DNA of 64,000 nt, from the NCBI GenBank assembly GCA_015069045.1, contig SVJJ01000001.1, forward strand, positions 1 through 64,000, written 5' to 3'. Below, one piece after another: positions 907 to 12,741 of this stretch; position 1 is the first letter of the stretch; every line of letters starts with the position of its first letter. A program made the translations under genes and the position numbers. The notes beneath the pieces were generated by a model. That model was given only the letters and a program-made list of their open reading frames with translations, was not told where the DNA came from and did not search any database. Origin of the DNA: Oscillospiraceae bacterium. GTDB lineage: Bacteria; Bacillota; Clostridia; UBA1381; UBA9506.

Positions 907-935
907 TTGACAAATAAAAAACATGAGAGTATAAT
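907..935 (+). promoter_or_regulatory. Sigma-A promoter of the ilv-leu operon
   Basis: A perfect TTGACA (907-912) and a perfect TATAAT (930-935) are separated by exactly 17 bases. It lies about 30 bases upstream of the first T-box module, so transcription would start near 942 and include the whole leader. Because the promoter matches consensus, control is expected to act mainly after initiation. Confidence 0.9.
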
Positions 936-964
936 AAACGATAATTTAATAATTCAAATTAAAA

Positions 965-1140
965 GCTGTGACGAAGAATGGACTGGAGAAAAGCATTTGA
1001 GAGAGCTGATGGGTGGTGCGAATCAGTATGTTATATATCCAAATCCTCTCCCTTCTGAGCCGGAAACCTGAAGCGAAAGTGTGTAGGGCGCCCCGTGTAT
1101 GCTACGTTAGTGCATAGAGGTTAGTAGACTTCGAATCAAT
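965..1140 (+). promoter_or_regulatory. T-box module 1 (Stem I region), apparent Leu specifier CTC
   Basis: This is the first of two T-box sensing modules. Recognisable parts are the GACGAAGA start, GAGAGAGC (999-1006), an apical hairpin CTGAT/ATCAG with a GGTGGTGCG loop (1006-1026), the conserved CTTCTGAGCCGGAA (from 1052) and the 18-base block GCTACGTTAGTGCATAGA (1101-1118). Aligning CTTCTGAGCC with module 2 places CTC at 1048-1050 in the specifier position, which would read tRNA-Leu. The following base is C where an A is usual. No T-box sequence or terminator follows before module 2 begins, so this module has no decision domain of its own. The specifier assignment is inferred from alignment. 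Confidence 0.75.
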
Positions 1141-1148
1141 TTAAAGGC

Positions 1149-1330
1149 GTTGATGAAGACGGAACCTACAACGAATTTATGAGAGAGCCGGGGATGGTGC
1201 GATCCCGGTAAAGGACTGTAGAATTCTTATCACTTCTGAGCCGGAAGCCCGAAAGGTTTAAACACCCAGTAGATACTTCCCGTGAATGCTACGTTAGTGC
1301 ATAGAAGTTGATAGACTTCGAAGAGTGGTA
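1149..1330 (+). promoter_or_regulatory. T-box module 2 (Stem I region), apparent Ile specifier ATC
   Basis: This second sensing module has the same order of elements as module 1: GATGAAGACGG, GAGAGAGC (1181-1188), a CCGGGGAT/ATCCCGG apical hairpin around GGTGCG, CTTCTGAGCCGGAA (from 1233) and an identical GCTACGTTAGTGCATAGA (1288-1305). The triplet in the specifier position is ATC (1229-1231) followed by the conserved A, which fits tRNA-Ile and the first structural gene, ilvA. It leads directly into the only antiterminator/terminator of the pair. Confidence 0.85.
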
Positions 1331-1350
1331 GATTTTTATATCTGCAATTT

Positions 1351-1410
1351 GAGTGGTACCGCGGGTTATTATAACTCGTCTCAAAGTTATCTTTGAGGCG
1401 AGTTTTTTTG
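1351..1410 (+). terminator. T-box antiterminator and intrinsic terminator
   Basis: The canonical T-box sequence GAGTGGTACCGCGGG starts at 1351. Its GAGT can pair with ACTC (1374-1377) to form the antiterminator around the bulge that binds the tRNA acceptor end. The competing terminator is a 14-bp stem, 1373-1386 with 1391-1404, with loop TTAT and a T-rich tail to about 1416. Uncharged tRNA should favour read-through. It serves both upstream sensing modules. Confidence 0.92.
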
Positions 1411-1450
1411 TTTTTTCAGGAATTCACAAAAATATGTAGAAAGGAAAAAG

Positions 1451-1585
1451 ATGAAAATGGCTGCAATTTTTAATTCTCTTGCACTAATTATATACCTTAT
1501 TCTCAGCATAATTATTATTGGTTATGCTTATTTGTATATACTCATTTTGCAGGCGAGTGGGAAAATTGGAGCAAACTCATCATAG
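1451..1585 (+). CDS. Ile/Leu-rich 44-residue leader peptide (putative attenuator peptide)
   Basis: The ATG lies five bases after an AAAGGA ribosome binding site, 40 bases beyond the T-box terminator. The 44-residue product has 11 Ile and 7 Leu and no Val; codons 10-33 hold 16 of these, including four consecutive Ile (20-23). Codons 33-36 (1547-1557) read TTGCAGGCGAG, which repeats the 3' arm of the terminator at 1625-1652 and can pair with its 5' arm. This is the arrangement of an amino-acid operon leader peptide whose stalled ribosome permits antitermination. The alternative is a small one-pass membrane protein, since residues 8-33 are hydrophobic. The ORF is directly visible; the attenuator role is inferred from layout and pairing. 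Confidence 0.65.
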   Translation: MKMAAIFNSLALIIYLILSIIIIGYAYLYILILQASGKIGANSS

Positions 1586-1624
1586 TTTTATACTATAAAA
1601 ATTGTTCATATTATACTTTTCCTT

Positions 1625-1659
1625 CCTCGCTTGCAACGAAACGCAGGCGAGGATTTTTT
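1625..1659 (+). terminator. Second terminator of the ilv-leu leader (attenuator)
   Basis: CCTCGCTTGC (1625-1634) and GCAGGCGAGG (1643-1652) form a 10-bp stem with one G-U pair and an 8-base loop, followed by ATTTTTT. The 5' arm, extended to 1636, can instead pair over 11 bp with TTGCAGGCGAG inside the leader ORF (1547-1557), so terminator and alternative helix exclude each other. Confidence 0.8.
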
Positions 1660-1771: not shown

Positions 1772-2968
1772 ATGTTGACACTTGACAAAATCTTTCAAGC
1801 TTCTGTTGTACTAAAAGATATAGTCAGAAGCACATCGATAGTTAGCACATCGGGTATTACTGATAACTGCGAGCTATTTCTAAAACCCGAAAACCTACAA
1901 TACACGGGTTCATTCAAACTAAGAGGTTCGGGATATAAAATAGCGATGCTCTCGGATGAAGAAAAAGCGAAAGGTGTTATTGCCTGCTCTGCCGGAAACC
2001 ACGCTCAGGGCGTTGCACTTGCCGCATCAAAATGCGGTATTAAATCACTTATTTGCCTACCGGACAGCGCACCAATTTCAAAGGTTGAAGCAACAAAGGG
2101 ATATGGTGCAGAAGTTTGCTTGGTTAACGGATGCTATGATGATGCATACAAAAGAGCACTTGAATTAAAAGACGAAATGGGATATACATTTGTTCATCCC
2201 TTTGATGATGAGGATGTTATCGCAGGTCAAGGCACAGTCGGACTTGAAATCGTAAACGAATTTGCAGATGTTGATGCAGTTATCGTTCCTATCGGCGGTG
2301 GCGGACTGATTTCAGGTGTTGCCTATGCTATTAAAGCACTAAAACCATCTATCAAGGTTTATGGTGTTCAGGCACAGGGCGCACCAAGCATGTATAACTC
2401 GGTAAAACACGGAAATATCGAATGCTTAAAATCCGTTTCCACCATTGCAGACGGTATCGCAGTTAAACAACCCGGCGAACATACATACGAACTGATTAAG
2501 GAATATGTCGATGATATTGCATTGGTTACGGATGATGAAATTTCATCAGCAATTCTTACTCTAATCGAAAAGCAGAAAATGATTGCCGAGGGTGCAGGTG
2601 CCGTATCAGTTGCGGCGGCAATGTTTAATAAGTTCCCAATTCAAGGTAAAAAGGTTGTAAGCTTGGTTTCAGGCGGTAACATTGATGTTTCGATCCTATC
2701 AAGAGTAATTGAAAGAGGTCTTATGAAATCAGGCAGAGTAACAAGCCTTCTTATCGAACTTATTGATAAACCCGGACAGCTTAAAGATGTATCAAGAATT
2801 ATTGCTGATCTCGGTGGTAATGTAATAAGTGTTCATCACGAGAAAAACGGTGCGACATCGGAAGTTACAGGATGTTATCTCAGAATTGATATGGAAACAA
2901 GAAACTATGAACACGTTCAGGAAATAACAAAAGCCCTTAAAAACGAAGGCTTCAAATTAGTGAAATAA
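1772..2968 (+). CDS. ilvA: Threonine dehydratase with C-terminal ACT domain
   Basis: This PLP enzyme deaminates threonine to 2-oxobutanoate, the entry step of isoleucine synthesis. The 398-residue protein has the PLP lysine in SFKLRG (Lys49), the substrate loop SAGNHAQG (about 73-80), the phosphate loop GGGGL (about 175-179) and one ACT domain from about residue 322 to the end. Its length and single ACT domain match the short Firmicutes IlvA/TdcB-like form rather than the long E. coli IlvA with two regulatory repeats. An AGGAG lies 8 bases before the ATG. Placement at the head of the ilv-leu operon, behind Leu/Ile-sensing leader elements, supports the biosynthetic role. The ACT domain suggests allosteric control, but its ligand cannot be read from sequence. 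Confidence 0.95.
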   Translation: MLTLDKIFQASVVLKDIVRSTSIVSTSGITDNCELFLKPENLQYTGSFKLRGSGYKIAMLSDEEKAKGVIACSAGNHAQGVALAASKCGIKSLICLPDSAPISKVEATKGYGAEVCLVNGCYDDAYKRALELKDEMGYTFVHPFDDEDVIAGQGTVGLEIVNEFADVDAVIVPIGGGGLISGVAYAIKALKPSIKVYGVQAQGAPSMYNSVKHGNIECLKSVSTIADGIAVKQPGEHTYELIKEYVDDIALVTDDEISSAILTLIEKQKMIAEGAGAVSVAAAMFNKFPIQGKKVVSLVSGGNIDVSILSRVIERGLMKSGRVTSLLIELIDKPGQLKDVSRIIADLGGNVISVHHEKNGATSEVTGCYLRIDMETRNYEHVQEITKALKNEGFKLVK

Positions 2969-2984
2969 TGGGAGGAAATAAAAA

Positions 2985-3359
2985 ATGAGTAAGATTATTG
3001 AAACAGATAAGGCACCGAAAGCAATCGGACCTTATTCACAGGCAGTTGTTTGCGGAAATGTAGTATATACATCGGGACAGATTGCAATTAATCCCGAAAG
3101 CGGAAACGTTGAAGCAGAAACAATAGAGACACAGACCGAGCAGGTTTGTAAGAACATCAAAGAACTTCTTACTGCATCGGGCAGCGGAATAGATAAAGTT
3201 GTAAAAACAACTTGCTTTCTTAAAAATATGGAAGACTTTGCAGCGTTTAATGCAGTATATGAAAAATACTTTGTATCAAAACCTGCAAGAAGTTGTGTAG
3301 CAGTAAAGGAACTGCCGAAAAATGTGTTGGTTGAGATAGATACAGTGGCGGAGGTATGA
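2985..3359 (+). CDS. ridA: RidA family enamine/imine deaminase
   Basis: This 124-residue YjgF/YER057c/UK114 protein starts 16 bases after the ilvA stop behind GGGAGGAAA. RidA hydrolyses the reactive 2-aminocrotonate and iminobutyrate released by threonine dehydratase, preventing damage to PLP enzymes. Family marks include the opening KAPKAIGPYSQA, GNVVYTSGQI (about 25-34) and the substrate-carboxylate arginine in the C-terminal PARSCVAV. Direct coupling to ilvA makes the functional pairing convincing. Its stop overlaps the region containing the leuA start. Confidence 0.96.
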   Translation: MSKIIETDKAPKAIGPYSQAVVCGNVVYTSGQIAINPESGNVEAETIETQTEQVCKNIKELLTASGSGIDKVVKTTCFLKNMEDFAAFNAVYEKYFVSKPARSCVAVKELPKNVLVEIDTVAEV

Positions 3360-3361
3360 AA

Positions 3362-5035
3362 ATGGATGCAACAAAATACCAAGTGGGATACTTTCCGGTA
3401 GATAAAAAGTACAACAAATGGGTAGAAAAAGACCATGTAGCAAAAGCACCTGTATGGTGCAGTGTGGATATGCGAGACGGAAATCAGGCACTCGTTATTC
3501 CAATGAGTTTGGAAGAAAAGCTTGAATACTACAAAGTTTTGCTTGAGGTAGGATTTAAGGAAATTGAAGTAGGCTTCCCTGCAGCAAGTGAAACCGAATA
3601 TGAATTTTTAAGAACCCTTATTGATAACAATATGATTCCCAATGATGTAACCGTTCAGGTGCTTACACAATGCCGTGAGCATATCATCAGAAAAACCTTT
3701 GATGCCTGTAAGGGTGCTCCAAGTGCGATTATTCACTTCTACAATTCAACAAGCGTAGCACAGCGTGAGCAGGTGTTCAAAAAATCAAAAGAAGAAATTA
3801 AGCAAATTGCGGTTGACGGTGCAAAGCTTGTAAAGAAACTTGCATCAGAATATGAAGGTAACTTCCGTTTTGTATATTCGCCTGAATCTTTTACCGGAAC
3901 TGAGCCTGAATATGCTTTGGAGGTTTGTAATGCAGTTCTTGATGTGTTAGAGCCGAGTGCAGATAACAATGTCATTATCAATCTTCCTGTTACAGTTGAA
4001 ATGAGTATGCCTCATGTGTACGCTTCTCAAGTTCAGTATATGCACGAAAACTTAAAATACCGTGAGTTTGTAACGATTTCTCTTCATCCTCATAATGACA
4101 GAGGTACAGGCGTTGCAGATACAGAGCTTGCTCTGCTTGCCGGAGCAGACAGAGTTGAAGGAACTCTTTTCGGCAACGGTGAAAGAACAGGTAATGTTGA
4201 CATTATCACTCTTGCTATGAATATGTATTCCCACGGTGTTGATCCGAAGCTTGACCTTTCCAATATGAACTATCTTGTTGAAAAGTATGAAAGCTGCACC
4301 CGTATGCATGTCTATGACAGAGCGCCCTATGCAGGAGCATTGGTGTTTGCAGCCTTTTCAGGTTCGCATCAGGATGCAATTGCAAAGGGTATGAAATATA
4401 GAGTTAAAAATAAGCTTCATCAGTGGAGTGTACCGTACATACCGATTGATCCGAAGGATATCGGCAGAACATACGATGCAGATGTTATCAGAGTTAATTC
4501 GCAGTCAGGTAAAGGCGGCATCGGATATCTTTTGGAACAGACCTACGGATACAATCTTCCGCCTAAAATGCGAGAGCATTTCAGTTATTTGTGTAAGGGT
4601 GTTTCAGACCACGAACACAAGGAATTAAAGCCCGATGAAGTGCTTGATATCTTTGAAACAAATTACCTTAATCTTGACTGCGGTATTGAAGTAACGGATT
4701 TTGACTTTATGCGTGAAAATGAAGTCGTAAAAGTTAATATCACTTTTAATAAGAACGGAGAAGAGACCGAATTGGAAGCTGAAGGAAACGGTACTCTTAA
4801 TGCAGTGAACAATGCACTTTCTGAATTCAGCGGTGAAAATTACACATTGCAGGTATTCACTCAGCACAGTATGCAGGGTGATGGCTCACGAAGTGTTGCG
4901 GCATCCTATATCGGACTTCAAAACGAAGACGGAACTTATTTCTGGGGTGCAGGTACAGACACAGACGTTATTTGGGCAAGTACAAAAGCACTTTTCAGTG
5001 CATTCTATAATATGACAAAAGGAGATGCAAAATAA
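3362..5035 (+). CDS. leuA: 2-isopropylmalate synthase, long form
   Basis: The enzyme condenses acetyl-CoA with 2-oxoisovalerate, the first committed step to leucine. The 557-residue protein has the catalytic-domain motif RDGNQA (about 38-43), the metal-binding His242 and His244 in LHPHNDRG and a C-terminal LeuA regulatory domain. It belongs to the longer LeuA2-like type. An ATG at 3356 overlaps the ridA stop but lies one base after the GGAGG (3350-3354); the ATG at 3362 has a 7-base spacer and is preferred. A C-terminal allosteric domain implies leucine feedback, although the inhibitor site cannot be confirmed by eye. Confidence 0.95.
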
Positions 5036-6294
5036 TGGGAATGACAATGACGCAAAAGATTTTAGCAGACCACGCAGGACTTGAAAATGTTGTGGCAGGT
5101 CAGCTTATTTCTGCAAAGCTTGATATTGTTCTTGGCAACGATATTACAACTCCCGTTGCAATTAACGAGTTTAAAAAGGCAGGATTTGAAAAAGTATTTG
5201 ATAAAGACAAAATTGCCGTGGTTCTTGACCACTTTGTACCGAACAAGGATATTAAAGCAGCAGAACAATCAAAACAATGCCGAGAATTTTCTTGCTCTCA
5301 TTGTATCAGCCATTTTTATGATGTTGGTAAAATGGGTATCGAACACGCTCTTCTCCCTGAACAAGGTGTAGTAACCGCCGGAGATTGTATAATTGGTGCA
5401 GACAGTCATACCTGCACATACGGAGCACTTGGCGCTTTCTCAACAGGTGTGGGAAGTACGGATATGGCAGCAGGTATGGCAACAGGTACAGCTTGGTTTA
5501 AAGTGCCGTCTGCAATTAAATTTAACCTTACAGGAAAGCTTCCCTCAAATTGTAGCGGTAAAGATGTAATTTTATATATCATCGGCAAAATCGGTGTTGA
5601 CGGAGCGCTTTATCGCAGTATGGAATTTACGGGCGAGGGCGTGGCTACTCTTTCAATGGATGACAGACTTTGCATTTGTAATATGGCAATCGAGGCAGGT
5701 GCAAAAAATGGTATTTTCCCGGTTGACAGAGTAACAATGGATTATTTAGATGGCAGAGGGATGAGACCTCCTGTGGTATATCAGGCAGACGAAGATGCAG
5801 AGTATGACGAAGTGATTGAAGTTAATCTTTCTGAATTAGTACCCATTGTAAGTTGTCCTCATCTTCCCGAAAATACAAAGCCTGCCAAAGAGCTTTCTGA
5901 AATCAAAGTTGATCAGGTTGTTATCGGTAGTTGTACCAATGGTCGTATGGAGGATATGGAAGCAGCGTATAAGGTGCTTAATGGTAAAAAGGTTGCAGAC
6001 GGCGTAAGATGCATTATCATTCCTGCAACAATGCAGATTTATCGTGAGTGTGTAGAAAAAGGTTATGTAACCGCATTTATAGATGCAGGTGCGGTTGTTT
6101 CTACTCCCACCTGCGGTCCTTGCCTTGGCGGATATATGGGAATACTCGCTGCAGGAGAAAAATGTATTGCAACAACTAACCGCAACTTTGTCGGCAGAAT
6201 GGGACATGTTGAAAGCGAAGTTTATCTTGCAAGTCCTCTTACTGCTGCTACAAGTGCAATAACTGGTTACATTACAAATCCGGAGGTAGAATGA
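5035..6294 (+). CDS. leuC: 3-isopropylmalate dehydratase large subunit
   Basis: Together with LeuD it isomerises 2-isopropylmalate to 3-isopropylmalate in leucine synthesis. The 419-residue aconitase-family protein carries the three [4Fe-4S] ligands at Cys300 (GSCTNG) and Cys360 and Cys363 (TCGPCLGG), plus DSHTCTYGA in the active site. It is the shorter LeuC type that pairs with a LeuD of about 165 residues. The ATG overlaps the leuA stop by one base (TAATG), with GGAG 10 bases upstream; in-frame ATGs at 5041 and 5047 are possible alternatives. Confidence 0.96.
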
Positions 6295-6295
6295 T

Positions 6296-6793
6296 ATGAA
6301 CACAAAAGGAAAAGTTTTTAAATATCCCGATAATGTAGATACAGATGTTATTATCCCTGCAAGATACTTAAATACGGCAGACGCAAACGAGCTTGCAAAA
6401 CATTGCATGGAAGATATTGATACCACCTTTGTAGATAAGGTATCAAAAGGAGATGTTATGGTAGCAGGTTGGAACTTTGGTTGTGGCTCTTCAAGAGAAC
6501 ATGCACCACTTGTTATTAAGACCTGCGGAACAGGTTGTGTTATCGCAAAAAGCTTTGCTCGAATTTTCTACCGTAATGCAATCAATATCGGACTTCCTAT
6601 TTTGGAATGTGAGCAGGCGGCAGATGAAATTAATGCAAATGACGAGGTTTCAGTTGACTTTGATACAGGCGTAATAACAAACCACACAACAGGCAAAACA
6701 TATAAAGCACAGCCCTTCCCTGAATTTATTCAGAATATCATTAAATGTGGAGGCTTGTTGAAATCCCTGAAAGAAGGCGAAAACAATGAATAA
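6296..6793 (+). CDS. leuD: 3-isopropylmalate dehydratase small subunit
   Basis: This 165-residue swivelling subunit of isopropylmalate isomerase starts two bases after the leuC stop. The conserved [11 protein letters not shown] (about 60-70) and the N-terminal [11 protein letters not shown] segment mark the short LeuD subtype. The last eight bases overlap leuB, so translation of the two is probably coupled. Confidence 0.96.
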
Positions 6794-7856
6794 AAATATA
6801 GCAGTAATCAGAGGTGACGGAATCGGTCCCGAAATCGTAGAACAGGCAATCAAGGTTCTTGATAAGGTAGCTTTAGCTTACGGTCACACATTTACATACA
6901 CAGATGTAGATATGGGTGGATGTGCCATTGATAAATATGGTGAGCCGCTTCCTGAAGCAGAACTTAAAAAATGTTTAGAGTCTGACAGCGTTCTTTTAGG
7001 CGCAGTCGGCGGAGATAAGTGGAACGATGTTCCGGGAGATAAGAGACCTGAAAAGGGACTTTTAAAACTCCGTGCAGGAATGGGTGTTTACTCCAATAAC
7101 AGACCTGCAAAAATCTGGCCGCAATTAGCAGATGCGTCCCCACTTAAAAAGTCCATTGTGGATGCAGGCATTGACTTTATCATTGTCCGTGAGCTTATAG
7201 GCGGTATTTACTTTGGTGAACATAAAACTGAAGGTGATGTTGCAACAGATGTTTTGAAATACTCCGAAGCAGAAATCGAAAGAATTGGCAGAATCGGTTT
7301 TGAAACTGCAAGAAAGAGAAACAAAAAGCTTTGCTCTGTTGAAAAAAGTAATGTGTTGGATTCGTCAAGACTTTGGAAAAAGGTTATGCATCGTTTAGCT
7401 TCGGAATATCCAGACGTTGAGCTTTCTGATATGCTTGTAGATAACTGTGCTATGCAGATTGTGAAAAATCCTGCTCAGTTTGATGTTGTCGTAACAGAAA
7501 ATATGTTTGGTGATATTTTATCGGATGAAGCATCAATGATTACAGGCTCAATCGGTATGATTCCATCATCAAGTCTTGGTAGTTCTTCCTGTGGTCTGTA
7601 TGAGCCTATTCACGGTTCTGCTCCCGACATAGCAGGCAAAGATGTGGCAAATCCAATCGGTACAATTTTATCTGCTGCTATGATGCTTCGTTTTAGCTTT
7701 GATATGCCCGATGAAGCGGATGCTATTGAAAATGCAGTTTCTGTATTTCTTGATAAAGGCTATCGCACAGCCGACATTATGAGCGAGGGAGGAAACCTCG
7801 TAGGCTGCAGTAAGTGCGGAGAGCTGATTTGCGAGAATTTGAGAAAGGGGTGTTAG
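6786..7856 (+). CDS. leuB: 3-isopropylmalate dehydrogenase
   Basis: NAD-dependent oxidative decarboxylation of 3-isopropylmalate gives 2-oxoisocaproate. The 356-residue product has the N-terminal [14 protein letters not shown], the substrate-binding arginine region [11 protein letters not shown], the catalytic YxxxK-type region around residues 140-195, metal-binding aspartates in [11 protein letters not shown] and the NAD pocket [10 protein letters not shown]. It overlaps leuD at the 5' end. This is a typical member of the family. Confidence 0.96.
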
Positions 7857-7858
7857 AT

Positions 7859-9528
7859 GTGCTTCTTTCAGGCTCAGATATCATAGTAAAAACTTTAATT
7901 GAACAAGGATGCGACACAGTTTTCGGTTATCCGGGCGGTCAAATCCTCAATGTATATGACAGTCTTTATAAATACCAAGACGAAATAAATCATGCATTGA
8001 CCGCTCACGAACAAGGTGCCACGCATGCCGCAGATGGATATGCGAGAGTTACAGGTAAGGTTGGCGTTGTTATCTCAACATCAGGTCCGGGCGCGACTAA
8101 TTTAGTTACGGGTATTGCCACTGCATATCTTGACTCAATTCCAATGGTTGCAATTTGCGGAAATGTTCCTACAACTCAGATTGGTACAGATAGTTTTCAG
8201 GAAATCGACATAACAGGCGTGACACTTCCCATTACCAAGCACAATTATTTTGTAGGCTCTGTGGAAGACCTTGCTGATACTATCCGTGAGGCGTTCAAAC
8301 TTGCAAAATCAGGCAGACCTGGACCGGTACTTATTGATGTACCAAAGGATGTTCAGATTAACAAATGCGAATATGAAGTGCAAAAACCCGTAGAAAAAGA
8401 TGAGCCTTTCGCTGCAAAAGATGTACGTATCATCGAGGCCGCTTCGATTATCAATTCTGCCAAACGCCCATTTATTTATTTTGGTGGCGGTGTAATTACA
8501 GCAGACGCACAAGAAGAAATGCTTGCACTTAGCGAAAAGATTGATGCACCGATTGGTTGTTCTCTGATGGGACTTTCAGCTATCCCGACCGACCATCCGA
8601 GATTCCTTGGTATGCAGGGTATGCACGGACACTTTGCATCTTCAATGTCAATGCACAATGCAGATGTAATCCTCTCTCTCGGTGTGCGCTTCAATGACCG
8701 TGTTACAGGCAATCGTTCAAAGTTTGCAACTGGTGCAAAGATTGTCCATATTGATGTGGATGGCTCAGAACTAAATAAAACAGTTAATTCGGTATGTGGT
8801 CTTCGCGGAGATGTTAAGCTTACCTTGCAAAAGCTTCTTCCTCTTCTCGTTGAAGATAAAAAAGAGGAATGGATGAAAAAGGTCAATGCTTTCCGCACGG
8901 AAGAAGAAACCTATCTTGACAACCGTGAGGGACTTACACCACGCAGAGCAATACTTACAGTTAATAAGTATTTAGGAGCAAGTACTGCGGTATGTACCGA
9001 TGTAGGTCAGCATCAGATGTGGTCAGCACAAAGTCTTAATTTCAAAACCTCTCGCCGTTTTGCTTCAAGTGGCGGTCTTGGTACAATGGGTTATGGCTTC
9101 GGCGCAGCAATCGGTGCGGCATACGGAACAGGTGAACGCAGTGTGCTTATAACAGGAGACGGAAGCTTTGGAATGAATCTCAATGAGCTTGCTACTGCTG
9201 TAAGATATAATGTACCTGTTGTTGTTATCATCATGAATAACGGTGTTCTCGGAATGGTTCGCCAATGGCAGACACTATTTTACGATAAGCATTATTCCAA
9301 TTCTGTTCTTCAAAGAAAAACCGATTTTGCTGCTTTTGCTCGTTCTTTTGGTGCTGATGGTGAGGCAGTTACAACTCCCGAAGAATTGGATGAGGCACTT
9401 GCAAAAGCTTTCAAAACCGAAGGTCCTTATATCATAGACTGTAAAATAGACAAGGATGAATTTGTTCTGCCTATGCTCCCACCGGGTGGAAGTATGGATG
9501 ATATTATTACAAAATTGGAGGTGGAGTT

Positions 9529-9532
<4 letters not shown>
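7859..9532 (+). CDS. ilvB: Acetolactate synthase large subunit
   Basis: This thiamine-diphosphate enzyme makes acetolactate or acetohydroxybutanoate, the common step to Val, Leu and Ile. The 557-residue form starting at GTG 7859 opens with LLSGSDIIVKTL, aligning with normal family N-termini, and has AAAGGGG 9 bases upstream. An ATG at 7814 would overlap leuB by 43 bases and add an untypical extension. The cofactor-activating Glu lies in AHEQGATHAADGYA (near residue 50) and the ThDP motif GDGSFGMNLNEL in the C-terminal third. The regulatory partner follows immediately. Confidence 0.94.
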
Positions 9533-11071
<1,539 letters not shown>

Positions 11072-11085
11072 CGGAGGTGTTTGTT

Positions 11086-12741
11086 ATGTCGAAAGAAAAT
11101 GTTGTAGAGGGCGTTCAAAACGCCCCTCACCGCAGTTTGTTCCATGCATTGGGACTTACTGAGGAAGAACAAAAAAGACCGCTTATCGGCATTGTAAGTT
11201 CATATAATGAGATTGTTCCCGGACATATGAATATTGATAAGATTGTAGATGCCGTAAAGATCGGCGTTGCAATGGCAGGCGGAACACCGATTGTGTTCCC
11301 TGCAATTGCAGTTTGTGACGGTATTGCTATGGGACATCAGGGAATGAAGTATTCTCTTGTTACCCGTGATTTAATTGCAGATTCTACCGAGGCGATGACT
11401 CTTGCTCATGGTTTTGACGGTCTTGTTATGGTTCCTAATTGCGATAAGAATGTACCCGGACTTTTAATGGCGGCAGCAAGAGTAAATATTCCTACTGTAT
11501 TTGTCAGCGGAGGTCCTATGCTTGCAGGAAAAATTGACGGATGCAAAACAAGCTTATCAAGTATGTTTGAAGCAGTTGGTAGCTATAATGCAGGAAAATT
11601 AAGCGATGAAAAGCTGAAAGAGTATGAGTGTAAAACCTGTCCGACCTGCGGTTCGTGCTCAGGTATGTATACAGCAAATTCTATGAACTGCCTGACGGAA
11701 GCTCTCGGCATGGGACTTCAAGGAAACGGAACGATACCTGCGGTATATTCGCAGAGAATAGAACTTGCAAAACATGCAGGTATGGCAGTAATGGAGCTTG
11801 TTAAAAAGAACATCTGTCCCCGTGATATTATGACAGAAAAAGCTTTGATGAATGCTTTGACTGTGGATATGGCACTCGGTTGTTCTACTAATAGTATGTT
11901 ACATCTTCCTGCTATTGCTCACGAGTGTGGTGTTGATTTGAATTTGGATGTTGCAAACAAAATCAGTGCAAAAACTCCAAATCTTTGCCACTTAGCACCT
12001 GCAGGTCGTACCTATATGGAAGATCTTAATGAAGCAGGCGGTGTTTATGCCGTAATGAATGAGCTTAATAAGAAAGGCTTGCTTAATACCAATTGTATGA
12101 CCGTAACAGGCAAAACCATAGGAGAAAATATTTCAGGCTCAGAAAATCTCAATCCCGAAGTCATTCGCCCGATTGAAAATCCGTATTCAGAGACAGGAGG
12201 TATTGCGGTTCTTCGTGGAAATCTCGCTCCTGACGGAAGCGTTGTTAAAAGAAGTGCAGTTCTTCCCGAAATGCTTGTGCATGAAGGTCCTGCAAAGGTA
12301 TTCGACTCGGAAGAAGATGCACAGAAAGCGATAAATGCAGGTAAAATCGTAGCCGGAGATGTAGTAGTAATTCGTTACGAAGGACCAAAAGGCGGTCCCG
12401 GTATGAGAGAAATGCTGAACCCCACATCTGCTATTATGGGTATGGGACTTGGAAACAGCGTTGCACTCATCACAGACGGAAGATTTTCAGGTGCGACAAG
12501 AGGTGCTTGTATCGGTCATGTATCACCCGAGGCTGCAAGTGGCGGTATGATAGGAATTGTTAAAGACGGAGATATCATCTCAATCAACATTCCTGAAAAT
12601 AAGCTTGAACTTATAGTATCAGATGAAGAAATAGAAAAGCGTATGGCAAGCTTTGTGCCAAAAACAAAAGAACTTTCAGGATACTTAAAACGCTATGCGG
12701 CGTTAGTTTCAAGCGGAGCTGAAGGAGCTGTACTGAATTGA
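11086..12741 (+). CDS. ilvD: Dihydroxy-acid dehydratase
   Basis: This iron-sulfur dehydratase produces the 2-oxoacid precursors of Val and Ile. The 551-residue protein begins at ATG 11086, with GGAGG 8 bases upstream; a GTG at 11077 lies inside that GGAGG and is rejected. Cluster cysteines are in PNCDKNVPG and [17 protein letters not shown]. Other IlvD/Edd marks are [10 protein letters not shown] and the C-terminal [11 protein letters not shown]. It is the last recognised biosynthetic gene of the operon; no ilvE is present. Confidence 0.96.

Follow-up and report, generated by a model that had tools for sequence, protein, structure and literature searches.

The sequences that precede a ten-gene BCAA operon in the genome of a gut clostridium (Oscillospiraceae) hold a tandem T-box and, in series downstream of its apparent Leu and Ile sensors, an element that (judging from the arrangement of its sequences and from modelled folding) is probably a ribosome-mediated transcription attenuator. 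The locus lies near the 5' end of the window, which denotes throughout the whole stretch of 64,000 nucleotides that was analysed. The reading of this element as ribosome-mediated attenuation behind a T-box, which had been put forward in a first-pass annotation of the same DNA, is supported by a full set of alternative RNA pairings (1:2, 2:3 and 3:4), by controls for chance, and by comparison with a sister species. In the arrangement proposed here, RNA polymerase would meet two conditional terminators in series, and the operon would be transcribed only past both. The features of the locus are as follows.

907 to 935, plus strand: promoter, TTGACA-17-TATAAT (consensus match 12 of 12)
959 to 1123, plus strand: T-box sensor 1, stem I to III (RF00230, 50.0 bits, E 8e-10)
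1141 to 1386, plus strand: T-box 2, with antiterminator GAGUGGUACCGCGGG and specifier AUC (Ile) (RF00230, 91.4 bits, E 1.7e-20)
1373 to 1404, plus strand: T-box terminator, 14 bp, -20.0 kcal/mol (sequence scan and folding)
1440 to 1445, plus strand: ribosome binding site AAAGGA for the leader ORF (sequence)
1451 to 1585, plus strand: leader ORF MKMAAIFNSLALIIYLILSIIIIGYAYLYILILQASGKIGANSS, 44 codons, of which 11 Ile, 7 Leu and 0 Val (translation and codon count)
1460 to 1483, plus strand: segment 1, partner 1548-1572, 21 bp in four helices (folding)
1505 to 1528, plus strand: hairpin of 10 bp within the 1:2 loop, carrying the IIII codons 20-23 (folding)
1547 to 1574, plus strand: segment 2, pairing 1547-1557 with 1626-1636, 1559-1564 with 1618-1623, and 1569-1574 with 1602-1607
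1602 to 1636, plus strand: segment 3, the 3' side of the antiterminator, of which 1624-1634 doubles as the terminator 5' arm (folding)
1624 to 1653, plus strand: 3:4 intrinsic terminator, 11 bp with 7 GC pairs, about -20 kcal/mol, then TTTTTTATT (folding)
1772 to 12741, plus strand: putatively controlled operon ilvA-ridA-leuA-leuC-leuD-leuB-ilvB-ilvN-ilvC-ilvD (NCBIfam matches for 10 of 10 proteins)

The operon and its tandem T-box

The 5' end of the window is occupied by the tail of a gene for a PLP enzyme (Pfam PALP, with a sequence that resembles tryptophan synthase beta), beyond which the order, 5' to 3', is promoter, two T-box sensors, T-box terminator, ORF, second terminator, hairpin repeat, and the ten-gene operon. 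A consensus scan of the window found no promoter at 1654-1771.

The T-box that the first-pass annotation had placed upstream of the leader ORF was borne out, and is a tandem of two sensors with one terminator. Every domain of T-box 2 (1141-1404) aligns to RF00230 (stem I with its specifier loop, the T-box sequence, the antiterminator and the terminator), and sensor 1 (959-1123) is without a T-box sequence, platform or terminator of its own; both sensors score below the gathering score of that family, which is 93 bits, T-box 2 by 1.6 bits. The specifier of sensor 1 would be CUC (Leu), given an offset to CUUCUGAGC that equals the one in sensor 2. Tandem T-boxes have been documented on Bacillota BCAA operons (PMC12452182). 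Tandem sensors with a common T-box sequence and terminator were also observed upstream of ilvA in several relatives of the present locus (L023, L026, L030-L035, L037, L044, L056, L058, L070 and L085); the Ile sensor apparently stands first in L023, and the Leu sensor first in the window.

Other T-boxes of the same genome (L001, L002, L004 and L005) each have a gene directly 3', and neither a second terminator nor an Ile/Leu-rich leader ORF was found after any of these four. The last of them (L005; G000:C13:156382-156619, minus strand, at the end of the same contig) carries an antiterminator and terminator nearly identical to those of T-box 2, precedes a gene whose product fuses an XRE-like protein to a longer chain, and is without a peptide attenuator; it represents a copy of the Ile T-box that was recently duplicated in front of another gene. 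The element at 1545-1660 was itself considered as a further T-box platform, and was rejected: it is without a T-box sequence, and matches to RF00230 stop at 1386. No other Rfam element was found at 1405-1771, where the matches were sub-threshold and at the level of chance.

The leader ORF and its mutually exclusive pairings

The first-pass annotation had described an ORF of 44 codons with 11 Ile and 7 Leu behind an AAAGGA site, all of which was reproduced. Its Ile and Leu codons include an early cluster within codons 6-16 (I6, L10, L12, I13, I14 and L16) and the IIII run at codons 20-23. When the region was shuffled, ORFs that reached 44 codons or more and 18 or more Ile plus Leu arose in 3 of 5000 cases, and ones that also had a Shine-Dalgarno site in 0 of 5000. 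The codon content of the leader (Ile or Leu at 18 of 44 positions, and no Val) matches the upstream T-box sensors and looks selected, and the earlier suggestion that both layers of control point to the same amino acids holds for the leader codons, the apparent T-box specifiers and the operon products, all of which are Ile/Leu.

The layout of an attenuator is complete in this leader, with four segments that form a 1:2 helix, a 2:3 antiterminator and a 3:4 terminator, and with segments 1 and 2 both inside the leader ORF. As had been noted from the sequence, TTGCAGGCGAG (1547-1557) pairs with 1626-1636 over 11 bp (10 Watson-Crick pairs and one G-U), and GCAGGCGAG within it duplicates the terminator 3' arm. 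Nucleotides 1626-1634 are common to 2:3 and 3:4, so that antiterminator and terminator are mutually exclusive; the U-tract sequence directly 3' of the terminator (1624-1653) is TTTTTTATTG. The corresponding energies are -35.3 kcal/mol for 1:2, about -29.7 kcal/mol for the whole antiterminator, and about -20 kcal/mol for the terminator, and the 1:2 helix masks almost all of segment 2. The architecture is as first described, except that the full 21-bp extent of the 1:2 helix and the additional helices of the antiterminator had been missed.

These pairings are neither a product of chance or composition nor a by-product of the peptide, because control sequences that preserve dinucleotides or the encoded peptide rarely or never equal them. 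The 2:3 duplex, at -26.2 kcal/mol, was equalled in 0 of 2000 dinucleotide shuffles (mean -9.8, sd 2.3), in 0 of 3000 synonymous ORFs resampled from the codon usage of the operon, and in 18 of 3000 permutations of synonymous codons within the ORF. The self-fold of the leader ORF (-35.9, with z about -4 against synonymous versions) was equalled in 1 of 3000 resampled and 0 of 3000 permuted sequences, and the overall fold of the leader (1440-1665) has a z of -7.3.

Constraint on the RNA in a sister species

A sister species with approximately 91% DNA identity is represented by two loci, L018 and L019, which are identical over the stretch compared and were counted once, so that the comparison is one of two distinct sequences; the gene upstream in L019 is the same as that in the window. 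Segments 1, 3 and 4 (1460-1482, 1617-1636 and the terminator arms) are the same in the window and in L019, and 3 of the 6 bases of the terminator loop differ. Segment 2 carries a single change, at position 1569, which is unpaired in 1:2 and ends the outer helix of the antiterminator. Across the leader ORF, 1 synonymous and 3 nonsynonymous substitutions were counted, compared with 66 and 2 in ilvA; the expectation for the ORF, when scaled from ilvA, is about 7.4 synonymous and about 0.23 nonsynonymous substitutions (Poisson P 0.005 and 0.002, respectively). Two of the three replacements swap Leu to Ile.

Two patterns had been named beforehand as contrary to an attenuator, namely loss of the ORF where the hairpin is kept, and random synonymous drift in the pairing segments. 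Neither is seen in the sister species, which keeps both the ORF and the hairpin, and in which it is synonymous change that is depleted and the peptide that changes. As far as the two sequences indicate, the RNA has been held and the peptide (bar the Leu-to-Ile swaps) has not, as expected of a leader peptide and contrary to what a conserved small protein would show. In L018 and L019, moreover, the terminator stem ends a mere 47 nt before ilvA, a gap too small to hold a promoter and in which none was recognised; transcripts of the operon must consequently cross the second terminator, and that terminator, being strong, has to be conditional.

The corresponding gap in the window holds a palindromic dispersed repeat (1656-1733, between the second terminator and ilvA) that is missing in L018 and L019. 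Further copies of the repeat, lying between genes in either orientation, were seen in the same genome (G000:C17) and in another five genomes of the genus; several sit directly 3' of terminator U-tracts, and the element is REP- or MITE-like. A third hairpin (at about 1688-1726) was considered as a part of the switch and discarded, since it belongs to this inserted repeat.

Folding around a translating ribosome and the proposed mechanism

The leader was folded with a ribosome footprint masked codon by codon, with various RNA ends and with three footprint sizes. In this folding model, at an RNA end of 1640, the 2:3 pairing forms for a ribosome at codons 6-21 and 24-28 and partly for one at codons 22-23, and it is blocked for a ribosome at codons 31-42, with an outcome that is broadly equal across the three footprint sizes. 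Because a ribosome at codons 6-16 covers segment 1, 2:3 largely holds in that case to approximately nucleotide 1650; for stalls at codons 18-28, it is kept only to an RNA end of approximately 1645-1650, and that if ribosome-spanning pairs are allowed. The early Ile/Leu cluster (codons 6, 10, 12, 13, 14 and 16) is, on this model, likely to be the sensing stretch, and the IIII run (codons 20-23) is less effective, unless ribosome-spanning pairs are disallowed or segment 1 lies under a queued ribosome. The first-pass annotation had cautioned that a ribosome at the stop codon would not cover 1547-1557, and had suggested CUCUUGC as a competing partner for that segment. Most of this motif does lie in the 21-bp 1:2 helix, a competitor that largely answers the concern; a ribosome at the stop codon still leaves 1547-1557 uncovered, and the outcome for 2:3 then turns on how pairs that span the ribosome are treated (allowed or forbidden).

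When no ribosome is present, 1:2 is preformed (20.8 expected pairs to an RNA end of 1630), at best sharing with 2:3. Once the complete terminator has been transcribed, 3:4 beats 2:3 at equilibrium for every ribosome position in the model, so that the switch would have to be kinetic; a kinetic decision is accepted for trp attenuation.

In the mechanism proposed, uncharged tRNA would hold the T-box antiterminator, and the polymerase would get beyond 1404 and then transcribe the leader ORF. If Ile-tRNA or Leu-tRNA were scarce, the leading ribosome would stall at codons 6-16, covering segment 1 and freeing segment 2, which would capture segment 3 as it emerges; formation of 3:4 would be delayed beyond the U-tract, and the operon would be read. 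If charged tRNA were plentiful, the ribosome would cover segment 2 (at codons 31-43) as segments 3 and 4 are made, or, alternatively, 1:2 would re-form behind the ribosome, and by either route 3:4 would terminate transcription. In a leader that is not translated, the preformed 1:2 helix would favour termination.

Firmicutes have been predicted to uncouple transcription from translation (as summarized in PMC10953045, citing Johnson et al. 2020), a prediction that would disfavour ribosome-mediated attenuation. The distance from terminators to stop codons was considered as a sign of uncoupled transcription and was set aside, the window holding too few terminators for that purpose. That the locus carries three serial sensors of tRNA charging, of two unrelated kinds (a Leu T-box, an Ile T-box and an Ile/Leu stalling attenuator), all of which act on termination and the last of which needs coupling, is nevertheless considered fairly likely. 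Stacking a T-box and a peptide attenuator that answer to one pair of amino acids would create AND logic and make the response steeper. A ribosome near the polymerase is also required for ribosome-mediated attenuation, and the leader, if it works, would offer a natural means of probing coupling in Clostridia.

Alternative explanations

It is improbable that the ORF is a genuine gene for a small membrane protein, the first of the operon, behind which the hairpin would act as a constitutive partial terminator that lowers downstream expression and the pairings would be incidental. Short ORFs for hydrophobic peptides are frequent, and operons can contain partial terminators; the peptide is a hydrophobic chain of 44 aa with a good ribosome site, and Ile/Leu richness is expected of any small membrane peptide. 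The substitutions in the ORF (1 synonymous to 3 nonsynonymous) are nevertheless the reverse of those in ilvA (66 to 2), the pairings go beyond those of synonymous controls, and the peptide matched no Pfam family and no convincing homologue in 94 other genomes of the order. A terminator of 11 bp that is GC-rich and followed by a T6 run would, in addition, stop most of the ten-gene transcripts.

An RNA switch that is independent of translation (responding to a ligand, a protein or a small RNA), with the ORF a by-product of AT-rich sequence, is judged quite improbable: it accounts for the strong structure (z -7.3) and for RNA-level constraint between the window and L019, but the Rfam families compared with 1405-1771 gave none above chance, a comparable ORF with a Shine-Dalgarno site arose in 0 of 5000 shuffles, the Ile/Leu codons fit the products of the operon, and 2 of 3 replacements stay within Ile/Leu. 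Very improbable is a trp-like leader that mainly senses general translation, in which an untranslated leader would form 1:2 and terminate and any slow ribosome would lead to read-through. Ile or Leu at 18 of 44 codons and Val at 0, in agreement with the upstream T-box sensors, argue against such a leader, even though 1:2 is preformed without a ribosome (with the same 20.8 expected pairs to RNA end 1630) and stalls at non-BCAA codons in the same range yield the same pairing.

Distribution among relatives

The attenuator was sought upstream of ilvA at 80 related loci (75-99% protein identity). The layout of a T-box followed by a peptide attenuator was found in L018 and L019 only, and a filter for a terminator plus an Ile/Leu/Val-rich ORF detected a second layer in 0 of the other 78. 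Searches by peptide and by DNA in 94 other genomes, drawn from the genus, the family and the order, returned no convincing relatives of the leader; matches outside its own genome were dismissed as chance (pst transporter genes in L128, L130 and L131 among them) or as copies of the dispersed repeat. The closest loci after the sister species (L020, L021 and L022, with 94, 94 and 89% IlvA identity) were observed to lack a T-box, a terminator and a leader ORF alike upstream of ilvA, which indicates that regulation of the operon has turned over quickly.

No IlvA orthologue was found in nine other genomes of the genus (G001-G009), in which the best matches have approximately 24-32% identity, and the BCAA operon would thus seem to be unusual in the genus, having been either retained or gained by transfer. 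The attenuator appears to be restricted to this species pair. It also appears young, in that among close ilvA relatives some carry T-boxes alone and others lack both T-box and terminator, and its origin would be traceable.

Comparison with known systems

Peptide attenuation of ilv and leu operons is classical in Proteobacteria, and in E. coli the antiterminator and terminator exclude each other. Similar leaders before ilv and leu operons have been predicted in Actinobacteria (PMC1262725). The first-pass annotation had named both lineages, correctly, but such attenuation is not confined to them, being supported also for the ilv-leu operon of S. aureus (PMC5794164). Like the E. coli ilvL and leuL leaders, and like the Corynebacterium and Streptomyces ilvB leaders, the element described here consists of a short ORF rich in BCAA codons and a terminator before an ilv/leu operon; unlike the E. 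coli and actinobacterial leaders, it has no Val codons, holds segments 1 and 2 within the ORF, and stands behind a clostridial T-box.

The S. aureus system (PMC5794164) shares with the present one a Firmicute host, an Ile/Leu-rich leader ORF and an ilv-leu operon, with a distance from stop codon to terminator of 52 nt, compared with 38 nt here. It differs in having a peptide of 26 aa, ilvD as the first gene and CodY as the other layer (a T-box was considered, and excluded, by its authors), and in a proposed antiterminator that sequesters the U-tract without disrupting the terminator hairpin. Among the tandem T-boxes described in PMC12452182, the tandem arrangement upstream of ilvA, as in the window, is the only tandem riboswitch type listed for that gene; the third sensor is a peptide attenuator here, and a text search of that study found leader peptides unmentioned.

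According to PMC2965389, T-boxes and leader peptides substitute for one another from lineage to lineage, and no case in which a T-box precedes a leader peptide that attenuates transcription was found in the searchable literature, outside which most subscription papers lie. The first-pass annotation had termed the two-layer control unusual, which holds to the extent that the combination was seen in the species pair only and at 0 of 78 other ilvA loci, but which must be qualified by a precedent, rtpA (anti-TRAP) of B. subtilis. Each layer of the present element is of a known kind, and rtpA, whose peptide acts on translation, is the closest precedent for their combination. In that system, as summarized in PMC11255114 (citing Chen and Yanofsky 2003, 2004), a T-box is followed on one transcript by a leader peptide that responds to the same tRNA, as here; the rtpA peptide concerns Trp and the initiation of rtpA translation, whereas the peptide described here is predicted to concern Ile and Leu and the termination of operon transcription.
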